From positions 8,246,001 through 8,310,000 of the forward strand of contig NZ_CP108474.1 of assembly GCF_036226445.1 (NCBI RefSeq): a stretch of DNA of 64,000 nucleotides, written 5' to 3'. This DNA is from Streptomyces sp. NBC_01255. Lineage in GTDB: Bacteria > Actinomycetota > Actinomycetes > Streptomycetales > Streptomycetaceae. Below are positions 3,530 to 18,624 of the stretch, in pieces. The notes under the pieces were generated by a model, which saw nothing but the letters and a program-made list of their open reading frames with translations, had not been told where the DNA came from and did not search any database. Position numbers and translations under genes: made by a program. Each line of letters begins with the position of its first letter. The stretch's first letter is position 1.

Positions 3530-6500
3530 TCATGAGATCGAGTCCTCACCGAACAGGCCGTTCGGCGCCGGCCGGCGCGCTTTGCGCGAAGCTTCCTTGA
3601 CCGGCAGCACACACGACGCGACCATTTGGGACCGCGTGAGGACAGGGCCGGCCAGTACCTCGTGGAGGAGTTCGCTCTGGGCCGGCGCGAGGTCAGTGAG
3701 ACGGCGCAGTACCGAGAGCAGCTCGATGAGCTCCATCGTCCACTCGGCCGGCCAGACATCCACATGGATGTCGTCCAGCGGACTCGTGCGCTTACTGCTG
3801 GGCCTGGCCTTGCGATAGCCGAACCACTTGGTGACGACGTGCATGCCACCGACGTCATAGGACCAGACGGCCTCGGGCACGGGGGCGAACGTACCGTCGC
3901 CGACATGGAGGGTTCGCGTGTCGACGTCGTACCGCATCTTCTCCGGAACTGCCCGGCCGATGGGCGTGAGATAGCGAACCTGCCGAGGATCCCCTGGCAG
4001 GAACTCGATGCCGCCTTCCTTACGTCCGGCATCGTGGTCCACGCGGCGATGGCCGTACGTCGATGCCCACATCACCTCCCCGCCCAGCGCGACCGCCCGG
4101 CCCCACAGCCCTGGATCGCGTGTCAGCGGCACGCGTACACCGGGGGTGAGGAGTTCCTCGGCGAAGTGCTCAGTGAACCGGCCGTGCCCGGTGATGCCGA
4201 GCACATACGCAGCCAGATCCACCGCGTCGACCGTCGTGCGGCCGAGAGCGCGTGCGAGTAGAGGAAGGAGGCCGCTGAGGACGTTCGGTGAACCGTCGGG
4301 GTGGAGAAGCGGCATCACTCTGCCGCCGCGTCCGTTGAAATGGTGAGTGTCCGGAATCAGGTGGGTCGCCATCACGGCGGGGCCGGACTCGATCTCATGG
4401 GACGACTGCTGGTTGAGGAAGAGTTGCCCAGTCTGTTGCGTTGCAGCCCACAGATCAGGACGGGGGAAGTCGATGACGCGGTGATCAGGAATCAGCCACT
4501 GCCGGTCGAAGCTCCGCAGAGCTGTCCGGACCGCTTGCGGCTGGGTCGACCCCTCCTGGGCGATCGAGCGTTGGTGGACCGGCTGACCGGGCAGGGGGTC
4601 TCTCTTCCCGGACAGAGTCCGGTCACGAGTCTCCTTGAACAACTCCGCCTTGGCCACTGGATCCGGCTCCCGAACCAATCGCGCCCACCTCTTTCGCAGA
4701 GTCTCGGCGGACGGGGCACTCACCCACGAGCGATTCGGCTTGACCCCCGGACTGCCCCAGGGGAACAGGTCGTCCAGTGCCGGGAATTCGTCCCAGCCGG
4801 ACTGAGTCCGCGGCGTGAACGGGAGCACGTCCTCGCTGTGCGCCTCTCGCCAGTTGTCGTCGTCCAACTCGATCGCCCGTAACGCCGCGAACTTCTCCGT
4901 CCGCTTCCCCGAAACGGACCGGTAGTGGACAACAGCCCTGGGATCCGACGCATGCCGCCCCCTCTGCCTCCGCACGAAGACACATATGGCGAGCGGTTGG
5001 GCGACTCCAGGGAACACGCGGGTGGCGACATCGGACCGCTGGCCTTCCGGGGAGAGGTTGATGACCCAGCCCTCGTCGCAGGTGCGCCGCAGGTACTCCC
5101 TCATGCCACGGCCGCCCGGCCCAGTGGTCCACCCGGAGGGTGAGATGAAGCAGACAACCCCCTGCCGGTTGTCTTCATGGGTGTCGAACACCTTCCAGGC
5201 CGCCCAACGCCAGAAGTACACGTACATGTTCTTGAGCATGTGCTCGTATCGGCCGTTGCCTGGAAGCCGGAAATCATCGAGCAGCGGCCTGCCGTGGCCG
5301 CTGCCCTTCTCCACCCACCCGCCCCGGTTCTCCGCCTTGTCGTCAAAGGGAGGATTGCCGATGACGACGGTCACGGGCGTCCTCGCCTTGACCTCATTGG
5401 CTCGGCGTCTGGAGTCGGACAGTGCGCCGTACAGGGAGGGGAGGTGGTCGTCCTCGACGAAGGGGTTGTCCAAGGTGTCGGTGACGAAAAGGTTGAGTCC
5501 GCCCTCGGGGAGGGCCGACTCATGGCGTTTGAGGATGTCGGAAGCACGTAGCTCCGCGACCGCGAAGGGGCCCATTTGCAGTTCGAACCCGTAGAGACGG
5601 CTTGCCAGCCGGGAAACGGCGTCCCCGGCCATGGCCGGGCCGTGTCGTTCGGCAGCCCACCCCGCCACCCGCTCGATGACGGTGTGCAGATACGTACCGG
5701 TTCCCATGGCCGGATCCACGATACGTACGTCCTCGCCGCCGAAGCCTTCCTGTTGCCCGAGGCGGGTACGCAGGACGTCCTCAGTGAGGCGGACCATCTC
5801 CGTGACGACCTCGTGTGGCGTGTAGTAGGAGCCGCTCTTCTGGCGCAGCGCCGGGTCGTAGACGGTCAGGAAGTGTTCATAGAGGTGAAGGTAGGCATCC
5901 TGGTTGCCGGAGCGGATCGCCGGCCAGTCGACTCCCGCGATTGTGCGCTGCAGGAGATCGAGGGTGACGGTGAACCGTTCGTTCACATGGTCAGTCAGAA
6001 GCTGGAGCGCCTTGCCCATCAGCGCGTGGTCCGCATCGAGGCGTCGGCCGATCTCGTGCAAGCTCGGGCCGTTGTCGAGCATCCCCTCGGACCGGGCCAG
6101 GAGGAGGGCGAACGTGACGGCCTGCGCGTAGCCGTCGGCGAACGTGGCATCGTCGGCGGAGGGGAAGAGTAACCGACGCCACTCGTTCTTCAGACCGGTG
6201 AACGGGCGGGCGCGCGCGTCGTCGTCCGGACTAGGTGACTTGGCCTCGGCGGCGAGCTGTTCCAGAACCGTCGACCTGAGCAGGCGGCACAGCGGGGCGA
6301 GATGTTGGACGAGCCGGGTGACATGGGCGATCCGGGGCGGTTTCCACAACAGGAACATCTGCAGCAGCGCGTCGAAAGAGGCAGGGTCGGCAAGAGCGAG
6401 TTTGTCCCCCGCGCTGTGGAGAGCGCCTGTGAAGTACACGGTCTCGCCGAGCTGTTGCCCGTCGCGGAAGAGCCGCCATTCGGTGCCGTTCGAGTACAGC

Positions 6501-6841
6501 AGGTTAGGCAGGTTCCGCAGCTTCTCCCACTGCTCCCTGTTGGTCCTGGCGAAGGTACCGGGGTCCACGGACAGCCCGGGCTTCTTGAGCTCGAGGTAGC
6601 CGGTGACTTCTCCACCCGCTCGTACCGCGTAGTCGGGTCTCACGCCGAGATCGGCGACACGGAACTCGTCGTGCCAGGAGACCTCTCGGAGATCGTGGTG
6701 TTCACCCATGGCCTGGAGGAGGTTTTCGAGCGGCCCGCGGATCGAAGCCTCCGGGCTTCCGGCGCCGGAAAGCTTCGCCTTGCAAGTGTGGCCGAAACGT
6801 GAAACGGCAGCGCGCAGCCAGTCGTACACGTCCCCCGACAT
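3530..6841 (-). CDS. Nuclease-methylase fusion (single-chain restriction-modification enzyme)
   Basis: An 1103-residue protein. The N-terminal part carries a PD-(D/E)xK nuclease signature: RPDY with D70, then E84-L-K86. The middle holds an N6-adenine methylase with motif I VDPAMGTGTYL (about residue 373) and motif IV NPPF (about 495). The C-terminal half, about 500 residues, resembles the target-recognition and C-terminal domains of type ISP and type IIG enzymes. No helicase is present, so it is closer to type IIG than to full type ISP. I chose the ATG at 6841 because GGGGGG precedes it; a GTG at 6880 has no Shine-Dalgarno. It diverges from the ATPase gene at 7128 and would both cut and modify DNA at an unknown site. 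Confidence 0.8.
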   Translation of the reverse strand: MSGDVYDWLRAAVSRFGHTCKAKLSGAGSPEASIRGPLENLLQAMGEHHDLREVSWHDEFRVADLGVRPDYAVRAGGEVTGYLELKKPGLSVDPGTFARTNREQWEKLRNLPNLLYSNGTEWRLFRDGQQLGETVYFTGALHSAGDKLALADPASFDALLQMFLLWKPPRIAHVTRLVQHLAPLCRLLRSTVLEQLAAEAKSPSPDDDARARPFTGLKNEWRRLLFPSADDATFADGYAQAVTFALLLARSEGMLDNGPSLHEIGRRLDADHALMGKALQLLTDHVNERFTVTLDLLQRTIAGVDWPAIRSGNQDAYLHLYEHFLTVYDPALRQKSGSYYTPHEVVTEMVRLTEDVLRTRLGQQEGFGGEDVRIVDPAMGTGTYLHTVIERVAGWAAERHGPAMAGDAVSRLASRLYGFELQMGPFAVAELRASDILKRHESALPEGGLNLFVTDTLDNPFVEDDHLPSLYGALSDSRRRANEVKARTPVTVVIGNPPFDDKAENRGGWVEKGSGHGRPLLDDFRLPGNGRYEHMLKNMYVYFWRWAAWKVFDTHEDNRQGVVCFISPSGWTTGPGGRGMREYLRRTCDEGWVINLSPEGQRSDVATRVFPGVAQPLAICVFVRRQRGRHASDPRAVVHYRSVSGKRTEKFAALRAIELDDDNWREAHSEDVLPFTPRTQSGWDEFPALDDLFPWGSPGVKPNRSWVSAPSAETLRKRWARLVREPDPVAKAELFKETRDRTLSGKRDPLPGQPVHQRSIAQEGSTQPQAVRTALRSFDRQWLIPDHRVIDFPRPDLWAATQQTGQLFLNQQSSHEIESGPAVMATHLIPDTHHFNGRGGRVMPLLHPDGSPNVLSGLLPLLARALGRTTVDAVDLAAYVLGITGHGRFTEHFAEELLTPGVRVPLTRDPGLWGRAVALGGEVMWASTYGHRRVDHDAGRKEGGIEFLPGDPRQVRYLTPIGRAVPEKMRYDVDTRTLHVGDGTFAPVPEAVWSYDVGGMHVVTKWFGYRKARPSSKRTSPLDDIHVDVWPAEWTMELIELLSVLRRLTDLAPAQSELLHEVLAGPVLTRSQMVASCVLPVKEASRKARRPAPNGLFGEDSIS

Positions 6842-7127
6842 ATGCCCCCCAGGATCGCGACTGATGACGAGGGTAGCCACGGCTGGTCAGTGAGGGAAGA
6901 CGGAGTGTGAGGGGGCGGCAGGCTGGCGCGACGATCGAACTTCCCTGTAGATCATCGGAGTTGTAGTGGACGGCCGGGAGGGATCGAATTCACGCTTCAG
7001 GAATCGAACATGCCGGAGCATCTGTTGACTACGTAAACGCGCATGTGTCAGCCTGGTTGTGCGGCTATGCCGGGCGGCCTCCCCGTGCCGATCTCGACGT
7101 CGATGCCCGACCTGAGGAGCGCCAGCC
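6842..7127. promoter_or_regulatory. Divergent intergenic region at the edge of the defence operon
   Basis: A 286-base gene-free gap between the divergent methylase-nuclease and zinc-hook ATPase genes. It must hold both promoters. The element ATCGAA followed by C/T recurs at about 6925, 6974 and 6999, twice within ATCGAAYTTC-like or ATCGAATTC contexts, and TTGACT occurs at 7025-7030, but I could not find a matching -10 with confidence. Confidence 0.3.
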
Positions 7128-9533
7128 ATGACCGAAGACACCCCTTCTAGCCCGGCCCCTCTCCATGACCTCGTCCTCGGTCGACTACTCGACTCCGGCC
7201 TGGCGCCCGAGGCGCAGGACGTCGTGCGAGCACTGCTGCCTGCCACTCCCGTCGGACACGGCCGGCGGACGGGAAACGTGTACCTGGAGTCGGTCTCGGC
7301 ATCCGGGTGGCGCGGCATCGGCCCGGGCGTCACGCTCGACGTTCCTCCCGGTCCGGGTCTGACGATCGTGGCCGGGCGTAACGGCTCCGGGAAGTCGAGC
7401 ATCGCCGAGGCGGCCGAGATGGCGCTCACCGGCGACAACTACCGCTGGCAGGACCGTACCCAGGTGTGGAAGCAGGGGTGGCGGAACCTGCATGACCACG
7501 ACAGTCCGCAGGTTTCCGTCACGCTGTCCTTCGGAGGTGCCGAGCCTGCCGGCACCGTGCGCCGGAGCTGGCACGGTATGGGACTGGCGGACGCCCGCAC
7601 ATTTGTCCAGCGATGTGACATGCCGGATGCTGCGCTTCAGGAGGTCATCTCCACGGACGACCTGGCGCTTTACCGGCCGTTCCTGCCCTATAGCGAACTG
7701 GGTGCGATGATCACCGCTTCGCCGAGCGTGCTGCATGATGCTCTCTCGCAGATCCTCGGATTGGACCTGCTCGGCGCGACCGACAAGAAGGCCCAGGTCC
7801 TCGCCAAGTCGCTGACTGACAGTGTCAACGCGGCGACCGCGATCGCGCGAGGCGTCCGCGAGAGGCTGTCGGAACTGGACGATCCCCGTGCGGCTGAAGC
7901 GGCGGACGCTCTCGCGGGCAAGGCCCCAGACCTCGGTCGGGTGCGGGCGCTCCTTGATGGGAGCACGCTCGCCGACGACGAGGATCTGGCGCGGTTGCGC
8001 CGACTGGCAGGGCTGGAGGCGCCTGACCCGCATACCGTCAAGATGACCGTCGCCCGCCTTCGTGAGGCAGCCGCAGCGGCCGACGATGCGCGCTTCAGTA
8101 CCGCCGAGGACGCACGGCAGCTCATCGAGCTGCTCGAGAAGGCTCTCGACCACCGCCGCCGTCACCCCGAGTCCGCCGACTGTCCGGTGTGCGGCAGCAG
8201 CGGCCGCCTCGACCGGGCGTGGGCGGCGCGTGCACGCGAACAGGTCGAGCGCCTCCAGGCCGAAGCCGCAGCGGCGCGGAGAGCGCGTCAGGACCTGGGC
8301 GCCGCCAAGCGGGCCGTTCACGATTTGGTGCACCCCGTGCCGCCTCACCTCGAATCGGACGAACCCGATCTCGCCCCGCTCTGGCATGACTGGACGACAT
8401 GCCGGGCAGTCGCCGACGCGCACGAGTTGGCGGTGCGCGCCGAGCGGGCCTCGGCCGTCCTCGGTGACGCCTGCGCCCAGGTGCGAGACGACGCAGCCAG
8501 GCGGCTCGCTGCCCGGAACGCCCGCTGGCAGACCGCGGCCGGGCAGCTCGGGGAGTGGCTGAGCCAGGCCGAGGCCGCTGAGGAAGCGAAGCCCCGGATC
8601 CGGCATTTGAAGGCCGTGCGCGCCTGGTTGAAGAAGACGACCGAGGAACTGCGCGACGAGCGACTGCGGCCCATCGCCGACCAGTCCCAGGCCGTGTGGA
8701 ACCTGCTGTGCGAGCGCAGCAGCGTCTCCCTCGGCGCGATCGCTCTCACCGGGACGACGACCAGCAGGAAAGTAGTACTCGATGTCTCGGTCGACGACAT
8801 CGAAGCGCCCGCCTTCGGGGTCATGAGCCAGGGCGAACTGCACTCTCTTGCCCTGGCCTTGTTCATTCCCCGGGCCACGCACGAGAACAGCCCGTTCCGG
8901 TTCCTCGTCATCGACGACCCGGTCCAGTCCATGGACACGGAGAAGGTCGACGGACTTGCCAAGGTGCTGGATCTCTATGCCCAGCATCGGCAGGTGATCG
9001 TCTTCACCCACGACACCCGGCTCGAGCAGGCCGTCAGGCGCCTCGGCATCAAGGCCACGGTCAAGTACGTGTCGCGCCAGACCGACTCGGTAGTCCAGGT
9101 GACCGACGTGAGCGATCCGGTGTCCCAGGCGCTGGACGAAGCCCGGGCGATCGCGCTGGACCCGAACCTGCCCTCCGACGTGGCGGACCGCGTACTGCCG
9201 GCGATGTGCCGGGTCGCTCTGGAAGCCGCCTACCTCGAACGTGCCCGCATCGCGTTGCGCGCCGCGGGACTCGACGAGCGGGCCGTGGAGGAGCGGATCG
9301 CCGCCGTCGGACCGCTCACGGAGTTGGTGGCCCTCACCCTCGCCCCGTCGGACGCCCGGCTCAACCGAGGTGACGTGCTCGACAGCATCGCGGCCGATTA
9401 CGGCACCTGGGCGAAGGCGCTCGTCCTTCTCTGTAACGAGGCTTCCCACCAGGCACCTCGCACCCCCGTCGGTGACCGCCGCGACCTCGTGCGACGCACC
9501 GAGCGGCTCGCCAAGGCGGTGCTCGCCCGATGA
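7128..9533 (+). CDS. Rad50/RloC-like zinc-hook ATPase
   Basis: An 801-residue ABC-type ATPase. The Walker A motif is GRNGSGKSS (about residues 84-92). Helical segments then lead to a CPVCG zinc hook at about 354-358 and return to a signature-like MSQGELHSLALAL, Walker B VIDDPVQSMD (about 595-604) and the H-loop FTHD (about 627). The last 150 residues are helical and contain LCNEASHQ, resembling the HEPN-like tails of PrrC/RloC-type ATPases; this is a tentative reading. Such proteins sense or bind DNA in defence systems (RloC, Lamassu LmuB). GAGGAG precedes the ATG. The gene overlaps the next by 4 bp, so the two products probably form one complex. Confidence 0.8.
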   Translation: MTEDTPSSPAPLHDLVLGRLLDSGLAPEAQDVVRALLPATPVGHGRRTGNVYLESVSASGWRGIGPGVTLDVPPGPGLTIVAGRNGSGKSSIAEAAEMALTGDNYRWQDRTQVWKQGWRNLHDHDSPQVSVTLSFGGAEPAGTVRRSWHGMGLADARTFVQRCDMPDAALQEVISTDDLALYRPFLPYSELGAMITASPSVLHDALSQILGLDLLGATDKKAQVLAKSLTDSVNAATAIARGVRERLSELDDPRAAEAADALAGKAPDLGRVRALLDGSTLADDEDLARLRRLAGLEAPDPHTVKMTVARLREAAAAADDARFSTAEDARQLIELLEKALDHRRRHPESADCPVCGSSGRLDRAWAARAREQVERLQAEAAAARRARQDLGAAKRAVHDLVHPVPPHLESDEPDLAPLWHDWTTCRAVADAHELAVRAERASAVLGDACAQVRDDAARRLAARNARWQTAAGQLGEWLSQAEAAEEAKPRIRHLKAVRAWLKKTTEELRDERLRPIADQSQAVWNLLCERSSVSLGAIALTGTTTSRKVVLDVSVDDIEAPAFGVMSQGELHSLALALFIPRATHENSPFRFLVIDDPVQSMDTEKVDGLAKVLDLYAQHRQVIVFTHDTRLEQAVRRLGIKATVKYVSRQTDSVVQVTDVSDPVSQALDEARAIALDPNLPSDVADRVLPAMCRVALEAAYLERARIALRAAGLDERAVEERIAAVGPLTELVALTLAPSDARLNRGDVLDSIAADYGTWAKALVLLCNEASHQAPRTPVGDRRDLVRRTERLAKAVLAR

Positions 9534-9913
9534 CTCTTCCCACGAGCGGACTGCTCGCCGCCGCCGACCAGTTGCTGTCGGGACACACCCCCCAGGGCGC
9601 GGCGCACACGCTCCCCCCTGGGCTCCGAGCCAGGGCCGCGGCAGTCCTGCTCCGGCTCGCTCTGGACGAGACGCTCGACTTCTTCTGGCAGAGCGTGAGC
9701 CCGCACATGACCCGCAACGGCCGCAGCCGGCTGATCTGCCTGCAGTGGTATGTCCGTCCCTCGGTCGCCCGCCAGTGGTACGCGGTATGGTCCGCCCTCA
9801 GCGCCGCCTGCCACCACCACACCTACGAACTGCCGCCGACTCCGGCCGAGGTACGTGCCTGGCACCAGGACGTGACCGAATTGCTGAGGATCCTTCCCTC
9901 GGCCCGGCTCTGA
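9530..9913 (+). CDS. Small helical partner of the zinc-hook ATPase
   Basis: A 127-residue, mostly helical protein starting inside the ATPase stop codon (ATGA), which implies coupled translation and a 1:1 partnership. The core reads LDFFWQSV, then SRLICLQWYV, then WSALSAACHHHTYELPPT and a terminal W-x2-DV helix. The His-rich end of a long helix may be a metal or RNA-binding site, and the fold could be HEPN-like, but the canonical R-x4-6-H motif is not evident. The arrangement of large ABC ATPase plus small helical protein is like LmuB-LmuC of Lamassu; that comparison rests on layout, not on sequence identity. Confidence 0.65.
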   Translation: MTLPTSGLLAAADQLLSGHTPQGAAHTLPPGLRARAAAVLLRLALDETLDFFWQSVSPHMTRNGRSRLICLQWYVRPSVARQWYAVWSALSAACHHHTYELPPTPAEVRAWHQDVTELLRILPSARL

Positions 9914-9970
9914 CCCTCGCCCCGCTCCGCACCGCGGAGCACGGCCTTCGATGACGACCAGAGGAGCATC

Positions 9971-11608
9971 ATGGACACCCGTCGCTACCGCATGGTGGTC
10001 ACCAGCGGACTCGACTACGTCAGGACCGGCGCCGCCGTCGACGACCAGCTACGCCGGTGGCTGAAGGAGGCGCCGAAGGGCTACGACGTGGACGCGTTCA
10101 CTGAAGGGCGCAACGAGATCGCCCGCGGCGTGACCCTCGACCACGACGCGAGCACCGGGACTACCGGTGCCTACGGACGATGGAGGCTTCGAGAGACAGC
10201 GCCTGGCGGCATCTGGCAGACAGTCGTACTGGCCCGGCAGGTGAACGACGGGCCGACATGGGTGCAACTCGACGTCGAACATCTGCCCGACGATCCCGAC
10301 ATACTTCCCGTCCCAGCGAAGACACCACGTCTGGCCAAGAGCCTGCTCACCGTGTTGGAAGCTCGTGACGGCCGCGCAGATGTGACAGCCATGCCGCAGG
10401 TTGTCGAGGCGGAAGACGTCGAATCGGTCATCGACGAGCTCTGTGACGCAGAACGGCGTCTTCCGATCGTCCTGGCGAGCACCCCATACGGAGAGGACTT
10501 CGACAAATGGCTGGAAAGGACCGTCGACCCGCTGGTCCGCCCCCTCGCCGGACTGGCGGTTCTGTACGTCCTGACCTCTGAGGCGGGTGCGGAGTTCAAC
10601 CGGCACCTCGAGCACCACCGTGTCTACGGCGGAGGCGTCCGTACGTACCTGCCGGGTGTCGATCCGGCCTGGTCCGCCGACGCCCAACGGCACCGGGTGA
10701 TGTCGCGCCGGCTGATCACCGAGAGGCCCCAGCACGCTCGCCGCATCCTCGCCCAGCTGCCCCAGAATCTCGCGGCTCGTATCCCGCTGCCGGCGGAACT
10801 GGACTCGGTCCCGGTGATGCGCACACGTACGAGGGAAGGTGTGGGCGGCTCCGAACTCGACTCGCTGCGCGACGAGAACCATGCACTGCTGGAGATTCTC
10901 GACGAGGCGGGGCGCGAACAGCGCGTGCGCGCGGACGAGATCCGGGACCTGAAGCACGAGCTGCGCAGGGCGGGGGACAACGAGACTCAGTTCATCGTCG
11001 ACTACGACGAGCAGTACCAGGAGCTTCACCGGGCGAAGGCGCAGGTACTGGATCTTCAGCAGCGGTTGGCTGTCTTCGTCGCCGCCGAGGAAGCTTACGC
11101 CGTGTCCGGGGGTCTCGGTGACGGCCCTTCCTCGTTCGATGAGATCCTCACCCGGATCGATGCCATGCCGAGAGTCCATTTCACGGGCTCCCGGAAGACC
11201 GCCCTGGAACTCGACGACCAGGCCTACGGCTCGTCGTGGGTGCGCATGGCCTGGGATGCTCTCCTGGCCCTGAGGGACTTCGCCGACGCTGCCGCAGAGG
11301 GCGAGGTCGCCAGCGACTTCAAGCAGTGGTGCGCATCCGCCCCCAGCGGAGTACACGTCCTGTCGCCGCGGAAGATCGTCCGTGACGAGTCCAAGAGCGT
11401 GAAGGCCAACACAGCCTGGCGCAAGGAACGCACTTTCCCGGTGCCGGCACGTGTGCACGAGGAACGGAAGATCTTCATGGGCGCGCACGTGCGGATCGGC
11501 GGGGGCAATACGGTGGCCCCCCGGCTCCATTACCACGACGCCGCTTGCGCGGACCACGGGATCTATGTCGGTTACATAGGACCCCACCTGACCAACACCC
11601 TGACCTGA
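9971..11608 (+). CDS. Coiled-coil protein of the defence operon, unknown function
   Basis: A 545-residue protein that I cannot name. Residues 1-270 form an alpha/beta region (with LPVPAKTPRLAKSLL and a segment VLASTPYGEDFDKWLE). Residues about 285-365 are a coiled coil rich in E, R, L and Q. The last 150 residues form a compact domain ending in RLHYHDA and YVGYIGPHL, a strand pattern I associate with actinobacterial defence-island proteins. No nuclease or ATPase motif is obvious. AGAGGAG precedes the ATG by five bases. Position between the ATPase pair and McrBC suggests an adaptor or sensor in the same system. Confidence 0.65.
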   Translation: MDTRRYRMVVTSGLDYVRTGAAVDDQLRRWLKEAPKGYDVDAFTEGRNEIARGVTLDHDASTGTTGAYGRWRLRETAPGGIWQTVVLARQVNDGPTWVQLDVEHLPDDPDILPVPAKTPRLAKSLLTVLEARDGRADVTAMPQVVEAEDVESVIDELCDAERRLPIVLASTPYGEDFDKWLERTVDPLVRPLAGLAVLYVLTSEAGAEFNRHLEHHRVYGGGVRTYLPGVDPAWSADAQRHRVMSRRLITERPQHARRILAQLPQNLAARIPLPAELDSVPVMRTRTREGVGGSELDSLRDENHALLEILDEAGREQRVRADEIRDLKHELRRAGDNETQFIVDYDEQYQELHRAKAQVLDLQQRLAVFVAAEEAYAVSGGLGDGPSSFDEILTRIDAMPRVHFTGSRKTALELDDQAYGSSWVRMAWDALLALRDFADAAAEGEVASDFKQWCASAPSGVHVLSPRKIVRDESKSVKANTAWRKERTFPVPARVHEERKIFMGAHVRIGGGNTVAPRLHYHDAACADHGIYVGYIGPHLTNTLT

Positions 11609-11670
11609 CGCCCACCGTCGACTGTCGAACGCCGCAGGTAGGGTCGAGAAGGCGTTGACGAGGAGTGAGT

Positions 11671-13527
11671 GTGAGCGAGCAGTACGACCAGAGTCCCGAG
11701 CCCGTGGCGTATCCGGAATTCCTGCTGCGTCTGCCCGGGGGAGGGCCCCGGGCGCGGGGGCGTCTCCTTGCGGAGAAAGGCACCAACGGCAGCCAGAAGT
11801 TCGTCGTCCTCGCGGGCTCGCCGGCACGGCCGGAGGTCGTCCCCTCCTTCCCGGAGCGGATGCCATCCTCGCACCGGTTCCGGGAGCAGCTCATCGAGCA
11901 GGGAGCGATCCGGGAATCCGCGACCTGGACGGGATGGCTGGAGACGGACCGCGACATCGAGTGCAACTCGCCGTCGGCCGCGGCGGAGATCCTCGTGGGA
12001 CGTAGCGCCAACGGATGGGTGGAGTGGAAGACCGCTGACGGGCACCCACTGGGAGACTTCCTGAACCACGCCGGCTGGGGCCCCAGCCGTGCCTGGCTCG
12101 TGCGCGGGTCCAACGTCACCGGCATCGACTTGGTGCAGCGCATGTGGCTGCCGGAGCAGCGCGTCTCCCTCGCCGCCACCCGACTGCGACAGGACGTCGC
12201 CCAGGGCGTGAGCAAGGACCGGCTGCGCTCCTTCGTCGAGGAGGACTACGAGTCGGCGGCCACGTACAACCAGAAGCTGGAACTGGTGGAGGAACTGCAC
12301 GCGTTCCTGTCGCGCATGAAGCCCGGCGACACCGTGTGCACGATCTCCCGGGGGCAGCTGTACGTCGGCGAGGTCGCCGGAGCCATGGAACAGACCGTCT
12401 CGGACGGGGGCCGGTCCAACCTGCGGCGGCCCGTCGAATGGCAGGCCCGCGGCTACCCGTACGACGAGCTGCCCGAGGAACTGCAGCAGAAGCTGTCGGT
12501 ACAGCACGACATCGTCGACCTGACCGTGGTCAAGCCGCTCCTTGACGGCCTTGGACTCTCTGACGCCGAACTGGCCACGGAAGCCGAGGCGGCGGCCGAC
12601 GGCGACGCGAGCGCCGAGATCGAGGTGATCACCCAGCGCCGGCGCGAGCTCGAACTACCCGAACCGGGAAAGGAACTGGCCGACGACCTCCTCGTCCACG
12701 ACGTGGACTGGCTCAATGAACTGCGCGACCTGCTCTGGGACGAGCGGCAGCTCGTGCTCTACGGGCCGCCCGGCACGGGGAAGACCTTCCTCGCGCTCCG
12801 CCTCGCCGAGTTCCTCGGCGGCGGACCCGAGCAGGTCAAGCTCGTGCAGTTCCACCCCTCCTACGCCTACGAGGACTTCTTCGAGGGCTTCCGGCCGCGC
12901 GAGGACCCGGACACCAGGGAGGTCGCCTTCCGGCTCACGGCAGGCCCGCTGCGCGAACTCGCCGACCTCGCCTCCCGGGAGGGCAACCGGCACATCCCCC
13001 ACTTCCTGATCATCGACGAGCTCAACCGCGCCAATCTGGCCAAGGTCTTCGGCGAGCTGTACTTCCTGCTGGAGTACCGCAACAGGTCGGTGCGCCTGAC
13101 CTACTCCGGCGACGACTTCGCCCTGCCGCCGAACCTCTTCGTCATCGGCACCATGAACACCGCCGACCGCTCCATCGCCCTCGTCGACGCCGCCATGCGC
13201 CGCCGTTTCGCCTTCGTCGAACTGTCACCCCGCACCGAACCCACCAGCGGCCTGCTCCGGCGCTGGCTCGCGGCCCAGGGCCTGGATCCCGAACCCGCCG
13301 ACCTGCTCGACGCCCTCAACGCCCGCATCGACGACCCCGATTTCCGGATCGGCCCCTCGTACCTGATGAAGAAGGGCGTCTACCGCGAAGGCGGTCTCGG
13401 CCGCACCTGGCGCACCAAGATCCTTCCCCTGCTCGTAGAGCACCACTACGGTGAAGGCGTCGACATCCAGGCCCGGTACGGGCTCGAAAGCCTGCGTAGG
13501 GCGATCGATCCGGAGAACGTGGTGTGA
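11671..13527 (+). CDS. mcrB: McrB-like AAA+ GTPase/ATPase with DUF4357 N-terminus
   Basis: A 618-residue protein. The N-terminal 130 residues contain a DUF4357-like module (SPSAAAEILVGRSANGW). A second module at about 150-290 (GDTVCTISRGQLYVGEV) has an OB/EVE-like look and may read modified or foreign DNA. The AAA+ domain carries Walker A YGPPGTGKT (about 364), Walker B IIDELNRAN (about 448) and the McrB-specific MNTADRS (about 493) followed by the RRRF arginine finger. McrB translocates DNA for the McrC nuclease. GTG 11671 follows GAGGAG with five-base spacing; GTG 11665 is an alternative. The stop overlaps mcrC as GTGA. Confidence 0.85.
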   Translation: MSEQYDQSPEPVAYPEFLLRLPGGGPRARGRLLAEKGTNGSQKFVVLAGSPARPEVVPSFPERMPSSHRFREQLIEQGAIRESATWTGWLETDRDIECNSPSAAAEILVGRSANGWVEWKTADGHPLGDFLNHAGWGPSRAWLVRGSNVTGIDLVQRMWLPEQRVSLAATRLRQDVAQGVSKDRLRSFVEEDYESAATYNQKLELVEELHAFLSRMKPGDTVCTISRGQLYVGEVAGAMEQTVSDGGRSNLRRPVEWQARGYPYDELPEELQQKLSVQHDIVDLTVVKPLLDGLGLSDAELATEAEAAADGDASAEIEVITQRRRELELPEPGKELADDLLVHDVDWLNELRDLLWDERQLVLYGPPGTGKTFLALRLAEFLGGGPEQVKLVQFHPSYAYEDFFEGFRPREDPDTREVAFRLTAGPLRELADLASREGNRHIPHFLIIDELNRANLAKVFGELYFLLEYRNRSVRLTYSGDDFALPPNLFVIGTMNTADRSIALVDAAMRRRFAFVELSPRTEPTSGLLRRWLAAQGLDPEPADLLDALNARIDDPDFRIGPSYLMKKGVYREGGLGRTWRTKILPLLVEHHYGEGVDIQARYGLESLRRAIDPENVV

Positions 13528-14741
13528 CCGCCATCCCCGCCGTCCGCCTCGTCGAGCATGCCCCGGCGGTCCGGCTGCCCCTGCCGGCAGCCGTCGGACA
13601 GGCGCTCGCCGCGTCCCGGATCGTCGACGCCGCACCCGACCCGGACCAGCCCGGCCAGTGGAGACTGCGGGCGGGCAGCAAGGTAGGCGCGGTCACCTTC
13701 CGGCTGCCCGGCACCGGGGACTTCATGCTGCGGATCACACCCAAGGTGCCCATCGCCCGGCTGTTCTTCCTCATGAGCTACGCGTTGTCCCCGTCCACCG
13801 CTCCGACCGGCCACGACGTCGACGTCGCCGAACACGCCGACGTACTGCCGGCCTTCGCGCACGCCTACGAACGCCAGCTCGCCAGAGCACTCGGCCAGGG
13901 ACTGATCCAGGGATACCGGACCACCGAGGAGAGCGCCCTCGTCGTCCGGGGCCGCGTCCGCGAGGCCGACCAGATACGGCGCCGCTTCGGACAGCCGCTC
14001 CCCGTGGAGGTCGTCTACGACGAGTACACGACCGACATCGCCGAGAACCGCATCCTGCGCGCCGCCACCGAGAAACTGCTCCGCTTGCCCCAAGTGCCCC
14101 GGGACGTGCGGCGCCGCCTTGCCCACCACCGTGGCCGGTTTGCGGACGTCGCACCGCTCGTCGGGGGCCAGCCCCTGCCCGCCTGGCGGCCGACCCGCCT
14201 CAACGCACGTCACCACAGTGCCCTCCGCCTCGCCGAGACCGTTCTGCGTGGTGCTTCCGTCGAGCACGGCGAGGGGCCGCTCCGCATCGAGGGTTTTCTC
14301 TTCGACATGAACAAGCTCTTCGAGGACTTCGTCTGCACCGCCTTGCGGGAAGCCTTGGCTCCATACGGCGGCCGGGCCGAACTCCAGGCCAAGGGCATCC
14401 ATCTCGACCAGGGCAACACCGTCCGCATGAGACCCGACCTCGTCTGGTACGCGGATCACGGCGTGGCCCGCGCGGTCGCCGACGCCAAGTACAAAGCGGA
14501 GAAACCCGAAGGCTTCCCGGAAGCCGACCTCTACCAGATGCTCGCGTACTGCACGGCACTCGGCCTGTCCGAAGGACACCTCGTCTACGCCAAGGGCAAC
14601 GCACCCCACGCCGCCCACCGCGTCCGCAACGCGGGCATCACCATCCACCAGCACGCGCTGGACCTGGACAGATCGCCGGACGTCCTCCTCCAGGACGTCC
14701 GAACCCTCGCCGAGCACCTCGCCTCCGGCGCACTCGTATGA
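13524..14741 (+). CDS. mcrC: McrC-like endonuclease subunit
   Basis: A 405-residue protein with the two-part layout of McrC: an N-terminal beta-rich region that docks on the McrB hexamer, and a C-terminal PD-(D/E)xK nuclease with MRPDLVWY (D about residue 302) followed by VADAKYK (D and K at about 317-320). The McrBC complex is a type IV, modification-dependent restriction enzyme that cuts DNA carrying foreign modification. The GTG start overlaps the McrB stop, so the two are co-translated. Which modification is recognised cannot be deduced, because the McrB N-terminus is not of the E. coli DUF3578 type. Confidence 0.85.
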   Translation: MTAIPAVRLVEHAPAVRLPLPAAVGQALAASRIVDAAPDPDQPGQWRLRAGSKVGAVTFRLPGTGDFMLRITPKVPIARLFFLMSYALSPSTAPTGHDVDVAEHADVLPAFAHAYERQLARALGQGLIQGYRTTEESALVVRGRVREADQIRRRFGQPLPVEVVYDEYTTDIAENRILRAATEKLLRLPQVPRDVRRRLAHHRGRFADVAPLVGGQPLPAWRPTRLNARHHSALRLAETVLRGASVEHGEGPLRIEGFLFDMNKLFEDFVCTALREALAPYGGRAELQAKGIHLDQGNTVRMRPDLVWYADHGVARAVADAKYKAEKPEGFPEADLYQMLAYCTALGLSEGHLVYAKGNAPHAAHRVRNAGITIHQHALDLDRSPDVLLQDVRTLAEHLASGALV

Positions 14742-14781
14742 TCGCCACGTCGATCCCCATGTCCCCTGAGGAGTCCGCCCC

Positions 14782-16920
14782 GTGCCCCAACTCGCCTTCG
14801 CCAACTCCTTCTGGGAGAGCTACGAGGTTCTGGAGAAGCAGGTCAGAGCAGGCGTACGTAAGGCGATGACCAAGTTCCAGCTGCTGACGGTCGCGGAACT
14901 GCACGCGGACAAGGGACTGCACCTCGAATCCGTCGACAAGGCGCGGGACCCGAGGATGCGGACGATCCGCATCAACGACTTCTGGCGCGGTGTCGTCCTC
15001 GCACCCGACGACGGCAGCGACACCTTCCTCCTGCTGAACGTGGTGCCCCACGACGACGCGTACACCTGGGCCGCCAAGCGCCTCTACACCGTCAACACCG
15101 CCACCCGTGGCCTCGAAGTGCGCAACGCCGTCGCCATCGAACAGCTCACGCCCGCGCTGGAGAAGGCCGCGAGCACGGCCCCCAAACTGCTCTTCGCCTC
15201 GTATTCCGACACCACCCTTCGCCACTTGGGCATCGACGACCAGGTACTCCGGGCGGTGCGGACCGTCATCGACAGGCCACAGCTCGACGCGTTCGGGACG
15301 CTGCTGCCCGAGGACCAGTTCGAGGTCCTCACCTTCCTCGCCGAAGGGTTCACACCCGACGACGTCTACCGGGACGTGGTCGCCGTGCGCAGGCCGGCGG
15401 ACGCCACACCCGAGCCGGACGAGGACCTGGCCACCGCCATCGCCAACACCAGCAGTCGGATCACCCTCATCACGGAGCCCGACGAACTCGCAGACATCCT
15501 GGCGAAGCCGTTCGCGGCATGGCGCGTCTTCCTGCACCCCTCCCAGCGGCGTCTCGCCTACCGGGTGTCGTACAACGGGCCCGCCCAGGTCTCCGGCGGC
15601 CCGGGCACCGGCAAGACCGTCGTGGCCCTGCACCGGGTGAAGCACCTGCTGTCCCGGTCGCCCGACGCCCGCGTCCTCCTGACCACGTACACCAACGTGC
15701 TCGCGGCCGCACTTCGGGATAACCTCGCCCTCCTCCTCGACGACGAGGCACAGCTCGCCCGCGTCGACGTGACCACGGTCAACGCCTACGCCTTTCGGCT
15801 GGTGCGCGACCTGGGCGGCCGGACACCCACCCCCATCGGGGACCAGGAGGAGCGGCGCGTCTGGCAGCAGGTGGTGAAGGATCTTGGGCTGCCGTGGACC
15901 GAACAGTTCCTGGCGCAGGAATACCGGCACGTGATCCTCGCTCAGGATCTGCGGACCGTCGACGAGTACCTCGGTGCCGGCCGCAAGGGTCGCGGGACAG
16001 CGCTCGGACCGCTGAAGCGGGCGCAGCTGTGGCGAGCGATCGACGCGTTCCGGACCACGCTCGCCGGGAAGGGGGTCCGCACCCACCTCCAGATCTGCGA
16101 CGAGGCCGCTCGTCTGATGACGGAAGCCGGCCGCGCGACCCATGGGTACACGCATGTGGTCGTGGACGAGGCACAGGACCTCCACCCGGCCCAGTGGCGT
16201 GTGTTGAGGGCAGCGGTCGCACCGGGATCGGACGACCTGTTCATCACCGGCGACCCGCATCAGCGGATCTATGACACCCACGTCTCGCTGGCGTCGCTCG
16301 GCATTCAGGTCACGGGGCGTTCCAGCCGTCTGCGGATCAACTACCGCAGCACGGAGGAGATCCTGGTGTGGTCCACCGGCGTACTCGCCGACGAGCCGGT
16401 CGCCGACCTCGGCGGCGACGGAGGGGACAGCCTCGCAGGGTATCGGTCGCTGCTGCACGGCAGGCGTCCCCATGTCGGCGGCCACCCTTCGGAACAGGCC
16501 GAGGTCGCGGCGCTGGTCGAACGCGTCCAGGGATGGCTGGGCCAGGGGATCCGCCCCGCCGAGATCGCCGTGTGCACGAGGTTCAACCTCCTGCTCGACA
16601 AGGTGCGCACCCGGCTCGAAGCGGCCGGCGTACCGACGGTGAAGGTGAAGGACAACCCGGCGCCGACCGCCGAGGGGGTACGGCTGGCGACCATGCACGC
16701 GATGAAGGGGCTCGAGTTCCGGTGCGTGGCGGTCGTCGGTGTGACCGAGGGCGCCGTGCCGTTCGCCCGCGAGATCACGCCGCCGGAGGTCGACCGGCTC
16801 CAGCACGACTCGGACATGCTGCGGGAGCGGTGCGTGCTCTTCGTGGCCTGCACGCGCGCCCGGGAGGCCTTGCACGTGTCCTGGAGCGGCGAGCCGAGCC
16901 CGTTCCTGCCGGAGGCATGA
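14782..16920 (+). CDS. UvrD-type helicase with RelE-like N-terminal domain
   Basis: A 712-residue superfamily 1A helicase. Motif I is GGPGTGKT (about residues 272-279), motif II VVDEAQD (about 459), motif III GDPHQRIYD, motif IV INYRSTEEI, then ATMHAMKGLEF and VACTRAREAL near the end. The first 120 residues, with RTIRINDFWRGVV and HDDAYTWAAKR, resemble a RelE/ParE-type fold; this combination is also seen in actinobacterial helicases of unknown role. The GTG follows GAGGAG. It ends in a bidirectional hairpin shared with the methylase gene. In this operon it may process DNA ends made by McrBC; that role is inferred. Confidence 0.8.
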   Translation: MPQLAFANSFWESYEVLEKQVRAGVRKAMTKFQLLTVAELHADKGLHLESVDKARDPRMRTIRINDFWRGVVLAPDDGSDTFLLLNVVPHDDAYTWAAKRLYTVNTATRGLEVRNAVAIEQLTPALEKAASTAPKLLFASYSDTTLRHLGIDDQVLRAVRTVIDRPQLDAFGTLLPEDQFEVLTFLAEGFTPDDVYRDVVAVRRPADATPEPDEDLATAIANTSSRITLITEPDELADILAKPFAAWRVFLHPSQRRLAYRVSYNGPAQVSGGPGTGKTVVALHRVKHLLSRSPDARVLLTTYTNVLAAALRDNLALLLDDEAQLARVDVTTVNAYAFRLVRDLGGRTPTPIGDQEERRVWQQVVKDLGLPWTEQFLAQEYRHVILAQDLRTVDEYLGAGRKGRGTALGPLKRAQLWRAIDAFRTTLAGKGVRTHLQICDEAARLMTEAGRATHGYTHVVVDEAQDLHPAQWRVLRAAVAPGSDDLFITGDPHQRIYDTHVSLASLGIQVTGRSSRLRINYRSTEEILVWSTGVLADEPVADLGGDGGDSLAGYRSLLHGRRPHVGGHPSEQAEVAALVERVQGWLGQGIRPAEIAVCTRFNLLLDKVRTRLEAAGVPTVKVKDNPAPTAEGVRLATMHAMKGLEFRCVAVVGVTEGAVPFAREITPPEVDRLQHDSDMLRERCVLFVACTRAREALHVSWSGEPSPFLPEA

Positions 16921-16942
16921 CGGCTCCCTTACAGGGGAGCCG
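16921..16942. terminator. Bidirectional hairpin closing the defence operon
   Basis: Perfect eight-base stem CGGCTCCC / GGGAGCCG with the six-base loop TTACAG, placed in the 27-base gap between the convergent helicase and methylase genes. Confidence 0.75.
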
Positions 16943-16947
16943 GGAAG

Positions 16948-18624
16948 TCAGCTGCCGTCGCCTTCCGACGGCGGCAGCAGGGCTCCACCGGTGAGACCGT
17001 CACGCGCCAGCGTGGCGGCGCGCTCACCGAGCTCGGTGAGGTCCCGCACGAGCCGCTCGAACTCGACGAGGGAGCGGAAGGCGGCGCCGTACCGGCGCTG
17101 GTCCTCGATCCCCATCTGAGGGATGCGAGCGCCACGCGTGTCGGTACGGAACGTGCCGCTCGCAGTGGTCGACCGGCGATTATTGGCGGAGCTTCGGAGG
17201 AACCCGTTGAGGTAGTCGGTGTCTAGCTGCTCGCTGGTCGACACCGCCGCGTCCTCGGACGTCCTGATGAGTCCGGCGCGGGCGAGTTCGGAGAGGCTCA
17301 CCACGGCGCCGTCCTGCAGGTTGCCGCCGGCGCCTTCGGACAGGGTGGGCAAGAGGTCCTGCAGCAGGGCCAGTCGCTTGCCGATATCGGCCCGGACAGC
17401 TGCGTACTGAGCTGCGTAGTCGGTCAGCCGGGCGGCGATGTGGGTCGACGGTGTCAGATCGACGGTGTCGTCGAGCAGCTCGATACGAGGTACCTCGGTG
17501 CTCTGCCCCGGCTGGGGTTCGAACGACGCGTCGAGCGCGTTGCCGGTGAGGTCGGTCATGCGAACGGACTCGACCAGCTGGTGAGCGTCCGTCGGACGCC
17601 TGAGCACCCACAGATGAACCGAAAGGGAGTGGGAGGCGGCCATCCCTGGAGGGAGGGCAACGACGTGGGTCAGCAGGCCACGACGTACCACCTCGGCCCG
17701 GATGCGGCGTCCGGCCTTTCGGTAGGCGACGGAGGTGGGCATCACCATGACGACCTGACCACCTGGGGTGGTGTGGAAGTAACAGTGCTGCAGCCAGGCC
17801 AGCTCGCTCTCGGCGCGGGATGGAACGCCGAACTCCCAACGCGGATCCAGGAGAAGGTCCTCCCGCCCCCAGTCGGCAACGCCCACCGGCGGTTCGCAGA
17901 CCACGAGTTCGGCTTTGAGATCTTGGTACTGGTCGTTGCGCAGGGAATCGCCTGCCCGGACTGTGACATCGGGGAGAGCCATGAGCCCCCCGCGAAGCTC
18001 GGCGAAACGGGCGTTCGCGGGGTCGACGTCCTGGCCGGACAGCGCGTCGGCCCGGCCGCCGAAGGAGAAGAGCAGCGAACCGATTCCGCAGGCGGGATCC
18101 AGGACGGTTCTCGCCTCCTCGCCTGCGAAGTACATGATCGCTTGCGTGAGTCGTGGGGAGGTGATGCCATCGGACCCGGCGCGCCCGGAGGAGTCGACGT
18201 ACCGGGCGGTGAGACCTGCGAGCAGCTCGGCGGGGGAGCGGTCCGCGGCCAGTTCACCGATGAGGGAACGGAGAGCATCCTCGCGGCTTCCCCTGCTGGC
18301 GCGGTCGCCCTGGACCAGGATCTCCGCGACCTGCGTGAGCCCGCGGACCATGTCGTCGCCGTAGATGGTGCGCAGCTGTTCCCACAGGCGGACCTCGGCG
18401 GACGCCTCCTTGCCCTTGCCCTTGCTCTGGTTCGCGAGCCAGGATCGGACCTCGGGAAGGGAGAAGAGCGGGCTGCCGGCACCACCCGCGACAGGGGCCG
18501 GGAAGTCCTCGTGACGCCTGCGCCAGTTGGAGACGGCGGCACGCGTCACTCCCGTCAGCCGGGCGATCTCGGCTGCGGTGACAAGGGGCTCTGTGGCTGC
18601 CAGGCGTGCGGTGTCATCCTCCAT
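16948..18624 (-). CDS. HTH-methylase-TRD fusion with degenerate motif IV
   Basis: A 558-residue protein. Residues about 10-65 form a MerR-like helix-turn-helix (TAAEIARLTGVTRAAVSNWR). The methylase core has motif I LDPACGIGSLLF (about 177), but where (D/N)PP(Y/F) is required it reads CEPPVG (about 243), so the catalytic aromatic is Val and the first position is Glu. Relatives I remember carry CDPPY here. The C-terminal 130 residues look like half of a type I specificity subunit (IPQMGIEDQRRYGAAF, then a long helix). It may bind a DNA site without methylating it. Start: ATG preceded by TTTGGAGGC. It converges with the helicase. Confidence 0.75.
   Translation of the reverse strand: MEDDTARLAATEPLVTAAEIARLTGVTRAAVSNWRRRHEDFPAPVAGGAGSPLFSLPEVRSWLANQSKGKGKEASAEVRLWEQLRTIYGDDMVRGLTQVAEILVQGDRASRGSREDALRSLIGELAADRSPAELLAGLTARYVDSSGRAGSDGITSPRLTQAIMYFAGEEARTVLDPACGIGSLLFSFGGRADALSGQDVDPANARFAELRGGLMALPDVTVRAGDSLRNDQYQDLKAELVVCEPPVGVADWGREDLLLDPRWEFGVPSRAESELAWLQHCYFHTTPGGQVVMVMPTSVAYRKAGRRIRAEVVRRGLLTHVVALPPGMAASHSLSVHLWVLRRPTDAHQLVESVRMTDLTGNALDASFEPQPGQSTEVPRIELLDDTVDLTPSTHIAARLTDYAAQYAAVRADIGKRLALLQDLLPTLSEGAGGNLQDGAVVSLSELARAGLIRTSEDAAVSTSEQLDTDYLNGFLRSSANNRRSTTASGTFRTDTRGARIPQMGIEDQRRYGAAFRSLVEFERLVRDLTELGERAATLARDGLTGGALLPPSEGDGS

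Follow-up and report, generated by a model that had tools for sequence, protein, structure and literature searches.

The RloC proteins are defined by a zinc hook together with the motif R-X3-E-X36-52-H, in which a serine often precedes the histidine (PMC2610378). PrrC guards a Type I restriction-modification (R-M) system, and HEPN domains have been linked to many R-M systems (PMC3710099). In LmuB, the Rad50-like ATPase of Lamassu, the Walker B glutamate is generally, but not universally, replaced by glutamine (PMC10586767). A census of McrBC systems links some clades to predicted methyltransferases and to a DISARM-like cassette, both given there in outline only, and the methyltransferase-linked clade of the NxxD type is merely announced for later publication (PMC11090510). 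Furthermore, LlaJI joins McrB- and McrC-like proteins with methylases (PMC12707154). Here, we analyse a locus of Streptomyces sp. NBC_01255 (contig NZ_CP108474.1) in which genes for a zinc-hook ATPase, a small helical protein and a coiled-coil protein precede those for McrB, McrC and a UvrD-type helicase, and a methylase-like gene converges on them. On balance, we slightly favour the view that the locus is a recurrent composite made of a four-gene McrBC core, an autonomous guard-like module of ATPase and small protein, and a shared coiled-coil adaptor.

The window, i.e. the whole analysed stretch of 64,000 nucleotides, covers positions 8,246,001-8,310,000 of the contig; the genome has 8.57 Mb and a GC content of 72%. 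The following features are counted from the first letter of the window, with the recurrent genes given first.

7128..9533, plus strand: Rad50/SMC-like ABC ATPase with a zinc hook, 801 aa; an additional helical domain at the C terminus bears R695-x3-E699...H774
9530..9913, plus strand: small helical partner, 127 aa, with R42-x3-[D/E]46-x48..51-H95, adjacent to the ATPase
9971..11608, plus strand: coiled-coil protein, 545 aa, putative adaptor
11665..13527, plus strand: McrB-like AAA+ GTPase with N-terminal DUF4357, 620 aa (PF14267, PF07728)
13524..14741, plus strand: McrC-like nuclease, 405 aa (PF10117)
14782..16920, plus strand: UvrD/GajB-like SF1 helicase with a conserved N-terminal domain, 712 aa (PF00580, GajB)
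16948..18624, minus strand: helix-turn-helix (HTH) and N6-methylase-fold protein, 558 aa, convergent, predicted pseudo-methylase (PF02384)
16921..16942, plus strand: 9-bp stem-loop, possible terminator without a T-run, within the 27-nt convergent gap between the UvrD and methylase-like genes
3530..6880, minus strand: Type IIG (Type ISP) restriction-modification enzyme, 1116 aa, a neighbour outside the recurrent set

Two samples of related loci were analysed. A species-level scan (one genome per species, the window's own genome not included) with the coiled-coil alignment yielded 57 loci. In the second sample, 150 genomes of the genus were searched with five genes and places were joined within 15 kb, which avoids selecting loci by the coiled-coil gene. 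The two sources overlap (e.g. L006/L092 and L005/L105; L and G numbers denote our loci and genomes), and the distance test described below was limited to loci with distinct McrB. In the species-level scan, the coiled-coil protein is present at full length and 71-77% identity in 23 of the 57 loci. The order ATPase-small-coiled coil-McrB-McrC-UvrD, together with the convergent methylase-like gene, is kept in 16 of these 23, so that the six-gene order noted by an earlier reading of the letters alone (the sequence-only reading) is conserved among loci found via the coiled-coil gene. The other seven (L002, L007, L019, L020, L021, L022, L028) have parts missing or rearranged. Since the order recurs in other genomes, the gene set is more than chance.

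The genus sample separates the parts. McrB orthologues, taken at 64% identity or above with the window counted, occupy 29 places in 27 genomes. Within 15 kb of them lie the methylase-like gene in 24 cases, UvrD in 21, the ATPase in 12 and the close coiled-coil gene in 7, while McrC stands beside McrB in 28/28 fetched loci. Thus 17 McrB places have no nearby ATPase and 22 have no close coiled-coil gene (for one, G099, the contig is too short to tell); in G144, McrB lies near a contig end which cuts its UvrD gene, and a UvrD piece and a methylase gene begin another contig. Seen from the other side, each of the 7 close coiled-coil proteins is accompanied by ATPase, McrB, UvrD and methylase, and of the 13 ATPases of at least 53% identity, 12 sit with McrB. 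The genes for the ATPase and the small protein are neighbours without exception (22 of 22 places, counting the window), 12 times with McrB and 10 times without; nine of the latter ten belong to a more distant subgroup, 40-49% identical. The small protein and McrC were looked for in the fetched loci only, not genome-wide. Plasmid records hold few relatives (McrB in 6 records, 1 of them over 60% identity; ATPase in 3).

These counts follow fixed rules. McrB rows below 64% were dropped; six at 48-52%, which align only from residue 133-141 on, were fetched, and no orthologous-level UvrD or methylase match was found in these loci. Partial matches of the ATPase (4 rows; G095, G099, G036) and of the coiled-coil protein (4 rows; G085:C68, G035, G069) were dropped before counting. 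For UvrD, 42 of 63 rows were used (at least 53% identity and full length, plus the G099 and G144 pieces), and for the methylase the first 37 rows (at least 52%). Proteins with an internal stop are omitted from the alignments.

Module boundaries are visible at the junctions themselves. In six of the 16 full loci, one or more inserted genes separate the coiled-coil gene from McrB, and in three of these (L004, L006, L013) they are read from the other strand. The ATPase-small pair is followed by McrB without the coiled-coil protein in five places (L091, L096, L102-L104), and the coiled-coil gene accompanies the core without the ATPase in L007, L019 and L020. Pairwise-distance correlations, calculated with permutations over 17 full loci with distinct McrB and without a species-tree control, so that only their contrast is meaningful, are highest for ATPase-small (0.86) and, within the core, for UvrD-methylase (0.82), McrC-UvrD (0.78) and McrC-methylase (0.75). 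The ATPase correlates less with McrC (0.49), UvrD (0.49), methylase (0.37) and McrB (0.23). Two results fit the proposed boundaries poorly: the coiled-coil protein follows McrC (0.81) rather than the ATPase (0.56), and McrB-McrC itself reaches only a moderate 0.59, which means that the low McrB-ATPase value partly reflects McrB's own behaviour.

The sequence-only reading had instead taken the tight operon for one concerted system, and in its full form this explanation has seven genes acting together, genomes with fewer of them being decayed or reduced forms. The order kept in 16 of 23 loci, the constant company of the seven close coiled-coil proteins and of 12 of 13 closer ATPases, and the coiled coil-McrC correlation all speak for it. 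In addition, the correlations of 19 of the 21 gene pairs stand above permuted data (1 in 500 or fewer), and therefore all genes share some history. However, the lack of a nearby ATPase at 17 of 29 McrB places, the pair without McrB in 10 of 22, the junction insertions, the three loci with core and coiled coil alone, and ATPase-core correlations of 0.23-0.49 are difficult to reconcile with a single system, and we regard it as unlikely.

The core proteins carry the residues expected of active enzymes in one part and depart from them in another. McrB combines DUF4357 (PF14267, E 5.7e-18) with AAA_5 (PF07728, E 1.4e-18), and its Walker A, Walker B and MNTADRS motif (NxxD type) are each kept in at least 97% of 44 aligned proteins. 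The head resembles RAMA weakly (E 0.025 for the whole, 0.0097 for the N-terminal part); we take RAMA to be a domain of restriction and methylase proteins which is a proposed reader of modified adenine. McrC (PF10117, E 1.7e-54) has the PD-(D/E)xK residues D305, D320 and K322, each kept in at least 97% of 47 proteins. The helicase matches PF00580 (E 1.7e-20), GajB is its best PADLOC match (E 6.9e-34), and motifs I and II are kept in at least 97% of 39 aligned proteins; the match in L010 spans 536 of 712 residues. The UvrD assignment of the sequence-only reading is thereby supported, while the RelE domain it placed at the head of the helicase is not confirmed by sequence profile. No relevant Pfam match was found for this N-terminal domain, the PDB profile search gave only DNA polymerase kappa (E 1.2-1.3), hhalign against a small ParE set gave P 0.14, and one homologue weakly matches CARF_RelE (E 0.056); L057, with a misplaced start, was removed from this alignment. 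A RelE-like fold is suggested by eye and not proven.

The methylase-like protein (PF02384, E 6.2e-24) keeps the S-adenosylmethionine (SAM) motif I, DPACGIG, in 43/43 aligned members. Motif IV reads [DE]PP[V/A/T/I] throughout these 43, with D or E in first place and never an aromatic in the fourth; the window has EPPV, which falls on NPPF in the alignment to 7vru, an adenine-specific DNA methyltransferase. More distant HTH-methylase paralogues have F or Y in fourth place in 11 of 12, and N, H or Y in the first. In this set of 12, L133 and L229 are the same protein; a 732-aa HTH protein without the methylase motif (L128) was excluded. In N6 methylases, loss of the base-stacking aromatic of motif IV predicts inactivity. 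Because this residue is missing across the whole clade, the protein is predicted to be inactive as a methylase; it probably still binds SAM and DNA. With EPPV or DPPV in place of NPPF, such an inactive methylase would be comparable to METTL14. A probable lack of activity makes a recognition or regulatory subunit likelier than the self-protecting half of an R-M system.

The same motif bears on a further explanation, in which host DNA is protected by the methylase and McrB and McrC attack sites left unmodified, as in LlaJI-like R-M. LlaJI itself is a precedent (PMC12707154), the census outlines a link between McrBC and methyltransferases (PMC11090510), and the methylase-like gene, present in 24 of 29 places, is the most constant after McrC. 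Against it stand the lack of the aromatic in all 43 members, whereas 11 of 12 distant paralogues keep it, and the lack of a second constant methylase among the clustered gene families. We therefore give this explanation little credence.

The second half of the composite locus is the ATPase-small pair. The zinc hook of the ATPase, CPVC at residues 352-355, has both cysteines in 36/36 aligned homologues; together with the Pfam domains of McrB and McrC, it bears out the zinc-hook ATPase, DUF4357-McrB and McrC named by the sequence-only reading. The protein thus presents the Rad50-like ABC ATPase with a CXXC zinc hook by which RloC is recognised, and a viral fold search returned mainly Rad50/SbcC/SMC-like proteins. 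Its Walker B, VIDDP, keeps DD in 36/36 homologues (D597). The same VIDDP is found in three of four parsed AAA_13 proteins (six were fetched; L265 and L266 are unparsed) and VFDDP in the fourth, and one of the four (L262) has a CPxC hook. The small-protein triad is present in 37 of 38 aligned rows (37 distinct) and in 10/10 distant members, and the R-x3-[D/E]...H triads of both proteins occur also in distant Actinomycetota. From these motifs, we infer that the C-terminal domain of the ATPase and the small protein are HEPN-like. When distant members are included, hhalign of the small protein against the ATPase C-terminal profile gives a local P of 7.4e-4 (probability 26%) and a global P of 2.5e-5 (50%), with at most 0.8% for eight control ATPase segments; a first comparison had been weak (2-8%), the higher values arising only after these members were added. 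The likeness of the two triad domains, from this one comparison, is suggestive. In L132, the sole ATPase with a changed E699 (Ala) is paired with the sole small protein with a changed H95 (Lys), a single case which hints that the two sites may work together.

The module is autonomous, since the pair stands without McrB in ten places. Restriction genes lie within the 19.5-kb stretch in nine of these ten, namely Type I R-M in L126-L132 and GmrSD in L124 and L125, as identified by Pfam (proteins from eight of the nine) and by tblastn (all nine), against 0/20 random stretches of the genus.

Several observations weigh against a HEPN-bearing guard of restriction loci. The ATPase scores 23.4 bits against the AAA_13 profile, below the family cut-off of 36. 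Its E-to-H spacing of 70-74 lies outside the 36-52 of RloC (48-51 in the small protein), and the residue before the triad histidine is Ser in only 13 of 36 homologues, including the window, against Ala in 22 and Thr in 1. Neither helical domain has a Pfam HEPN match, in the window or in distant members. Moreover, hhalign against three AAA_13 C-terminal domains was not significant (P 0.1), its best short match being the His motif. With respect to the neighbourhoods, the random control is small and was searched with tblastn queries derived from the test loci, and the nine loci include near copies with 90-97% identical restriction genes, which reduces them to about three kinds of neighbourhood. 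In a phylum-wide sample outside the genus, the same queries found restriction genes at only 2 of 10 ATPase-small loci (L259, L260). The other pairs lie among apparent housekeeping genes, and three of the ten stretches are short at contig ends. The association with restriction genes may thus be largely confined to this genus.

According to its best PADLOC match, LmuB (E 3.5e-22), the ATPase could instead belong to a Lamassu/ABC-3C-type system, with the small protein as LmuC and the coiled-coil protein as effector; this system would have become inserted ahead of a McrBC locus unrelated to it. Foldseek matches the ATPase to, among other structures, the solved LmuB of Lamassu (9hqx_B, E 2.4e-9), and the order ATPase-small-third gene agrees with this explanation. 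However, the Walker B DD in 36/36 homologues differs from the Glu-to-Gln change described as general for LmuB (PMC10586767), the third gene is inconstant (7 close coiled-coil proteins against 22 ATPase places in the 150 genomes), and the small protein has no PADLOC family match. We judge a Lamassu origin improbable.

The coiled-coil protein comprises an N-terminal beta-rich domain, a thioredoxin-like fold at about residues 140-270, a coiled coil at 295-369 and a further C-terminal domain. Foldseek gave no match at E 0.001 or better, and the thioredoxin-like fold points to no function; the protein is a putative adaptor. Its paralogues, about 48% identical, are accompanied by a set of three large genes, of which two families occur in 13 loci and the third in 8. 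In L025, the best assignments of these are an MZB helicase like MrfA/DruE, a helicase like DpdE/DrmD and a methylase like DrmMI. In L025, L031, L034, L036, L037 and similar loci, the three genes form an ARMADA-like trio, the families having been tested for L025, and a cluster of three recurring genes often comes next. UvrD relatives at 54-56% identity are found in loci with Type I R-M genes, beside HsdR and a Ser/Thr protein kinase, the kinase gene lying directly upstream (L136), and beside HsdM (L137). Because UvrD relatives and coiled-coil paralogues sit in other defence contexts, parts of both modules are reused elsewhere.

Taken together, a composite restriction locus, in which a core of McrB, McrC, UvrD and methylase-fold protein is joined to an ABC/HEPN-like guard module by an adaptor, is our preferred explanation, held with just over even confidence. 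The analysis itself establishes the gene content, its recurrence, the module boundaries, the catalytic residues kept in the core, the conserved triads and the altered motif IV; from these, we infer each biochemical step that follows, the guard role and any antiphage effect. McrB, a GTP-driven ring, would recognise target DNA via its DUF4357 head and translocate it. McrC would then cut the DNA, the helicase may open or process it, and the methylase-fold protein may serve as recognition or regulatory subunit. The zinc-hook ATPase would sense DNA ends or failed restriction and then unleash two HEPN-like sites, located in its C-terminal domain and in the small protein, which would cleave RNA much as PrrC and RloC do. 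The coiled-coil protein may tie the guard module to the nuclease core.

A bolder, two-part proposal is more tentative, and we consider it somewhat less than evenly probable. The pair would represent a new family of ribonuclease guards in which a Rad50-like ABC protein and its small partner each bear one HEPN-type site. It would be autonomous throughout the Actinomycetota, and Streptomyces would have added it to restriction loci of the McrBC, Type I and GmrSD kinds as a further layer of defence behind the first; at the same time, the McrBC core would use an inactive methylase as DNA-recognition or SAM-sensing subunit, and neither half would be a classical R-M system. If true, the idea of PrrC, a suicide RNase watching a restriction enzyme, would extend from Type I R-M to McrBC and GmrSD, and the guard would be a split, two-protein nuclease. 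A pseudo-methylase would help to explain the frequent 'methylase' beside modification-dependent McrBC, a link called surprising in the census (PMC11090510). Defence loci would be assembled from interchangeable parts, with boundaries visible gene by gene. Two predictions result: RNA cleavage by the ATPase-small module and no methylation by the 'methylase'.

A fortuitous accumulation of defence genes at a hot spot close to the end of the chromosome would suit the third-position GC of the locus (0.81-0.90, against 0.91-0.96 in the right flank) and the additional systems that other loci carry in this place, for instance a second McrBC pair in at least 9 of 23 loci, yet it is very improbable given the order kept in 16 of 23 loci and the median ATPase identity of 58% among the 17 full loci with distinct McrB. 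The sequence-only reading had named a chance stack of separately conserved systems as what would speak against it: the modules are indeed separately conserved, but their stacking is recurrent and not due to chance.

Within the locus, third-position GC is 0.81-0.83 for the ATPase, the coiled-coil protein and both methylase-type genes, and 0.87-0.90 for the small protein, McrB, McrC and UvrD. Right-flank genes that were scanned include metabolic enzymes and GntR-type regulators. All eight genes proposed by the sequence-only reading are open frames at the positions it gave, according to the open reading frame list, the translations and third-position GC calls made with our own script rather than a standard gene finder, and the six operon genes are on the plus strand. 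Other details of its layout changed. Overlaps, each of 4 nt, are found at two junctions, ATPase/small and McrB/McrC, where three had been counted as overlapping or nearly so; the remaining gaps are 57, 56 and 40 nt. The single closing terminator comes down to a stem-loop (16921-16942) without a T-run which the terminator scan did not call; the plus strand around it folds no better than shuffles (z -1.43), and the minus strand has a different fold (z -3.20). Of the two methylases said to face in from both sides, the right one does, whereas the left one, the Type IIG/ISP enzyme, reads leftwards and away.

This left enzyme (PF18135, E 1.2e-77; PADLOC family PDLC03631, E 5.8e-295) has an intact NPPF motif, and a relative of it occurs in 2 of the 57 related loci. 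In L195, another McrBC is closely followed, on the other strand, by a relative with 44% identity.

Further observations concern the surroundings of related loci. At least 9 of the 23 close loci carry a second, different McrBC pair ahead of the set, upstream of the ATPase or coiled-coil gene, with an McrB of 701-749 aa and an McrC of about 412-422 aa (L003, L004, L005, L006, L007, L009, L010, L013, L051); only McrC was called in L009, the McrC of L010 is shorter (340 aa), and the second McrB of L003 has a PD-T4-1-like N-terminus. In L107 (9400-14149), the place upstream of McrB where the ATPase module would be expected is taken by two divergent genes, for a sigma-70-family protein of 522 aa and a helicase-like protein of 1047 aa, and L111 has genes with similar starts. 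In L201 (approximately 15910-18470), a different McrBC, preceded by genes sized like the ARMADA-like trio, is followed after about 3 kb by a distant ATPase-small pair (34% and 32%).

Searches of the open-licence literature revealed neither this gene set nor a guard made of two ABC/HEPN proteins, an absence that is weak evidence; within that literature, the view of the sequence-only reading that no described system joins these parts stands. Papers listed under the PADLOC names NsnC and HEC-07 are unrelated. PADLOC families mad1, mad2, mad3 and mad8 are among the matches of several genes (mad3 for the ATPase, E 2.7e-18; mad2 for the right methylase, E 2e-19). MADS was nevertheless rejected: each gene matches another family better, and the NCBI MAD2 model (NF047738) is not reached, as the right methylase has no match at E 0.01 or better and the left enzyme scores 20 bits against 720.

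The locus also differs from described systems that share part of its content. In ARMADA Type II, a GajB-like helicase bears a RelE-like domain at its N terminus (PMC12458937, preprint); the helicase of the locus is GajB-like, with RelE only suspected. The eight genes of the locus include no YprA-like, BrxHII-like or PglX-like gene by Pfam and PADLOC, and this ARMADA set is therefore absent, while the L025 trio beside coiled-coil paralogues does resemble the ARMADA composition as the 2025 preprint gives it (PMC12458937). CoCoNuT systems likewise have homologues of McrB and McrC and coiled coils, and certain types have a helicase carrying a RelE-like domain, such as is suspected here. In contrast to their description in the census (PMC11090510), the locus has NxxD instead of NxD, its coiled coil on a separate 545-aa protein (McrB itself not having been scanned for coiled coils) and a UvrD-type instead of a UPF1-like helicase. 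CoCoNuT membership was rejected on the missing NxD motif (MNTADRS is NxxD). With Lamassu/ABC-3C, the locus has in common a Rad50-like ATPase with a CPxC hook and a small partner (PMC10586767). It differs by its DD Walker B and by the lack of a constant third gene, and no match named LmuA is among the PADLOC, Pfam and NCBI matches listed for the eight genes (at most 25 PADLOC matches each for the ATPase and UvrD). Lamassu is the best-scoring label, rejected for the misfit of Walker B and third gene.

Two comparisons bear on the core. With LlaJI (PMC12707154), it shares McrB/McrC-like restriction and a methylase gene, and differs by a probably inactive methylase and another recognition domain. 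The Type IV NxxD clades of McrBC, as outlined in the census (PMC11090510), likewise have an NxxD GTPase, a PD-(D/E)xK McrC and a neighbouring methylase-fold gene; compared with that outline, the locus is distinguished by the DUF4357 head, the UvrD/GajB helicase, the non-canonical motif IV and the ATPase-small add-on.

Finally, RloC and the ATPase of the locus have in common the zinc hook, the ABC ATPase and a C-terminal R-x3-E...(S)H triad (PMC2610378), and RloC, PrrC and the pair all have some link to restriction loci (PMC2610378, PMC3710099). Unlike RloC, the ATPase remains below the AAA_13 cut-off, with no significant profile match. Unlike both RloC and PrrC, it has an E-H spacing of 70-74, and a second triad domain is carried by a separate small protein.

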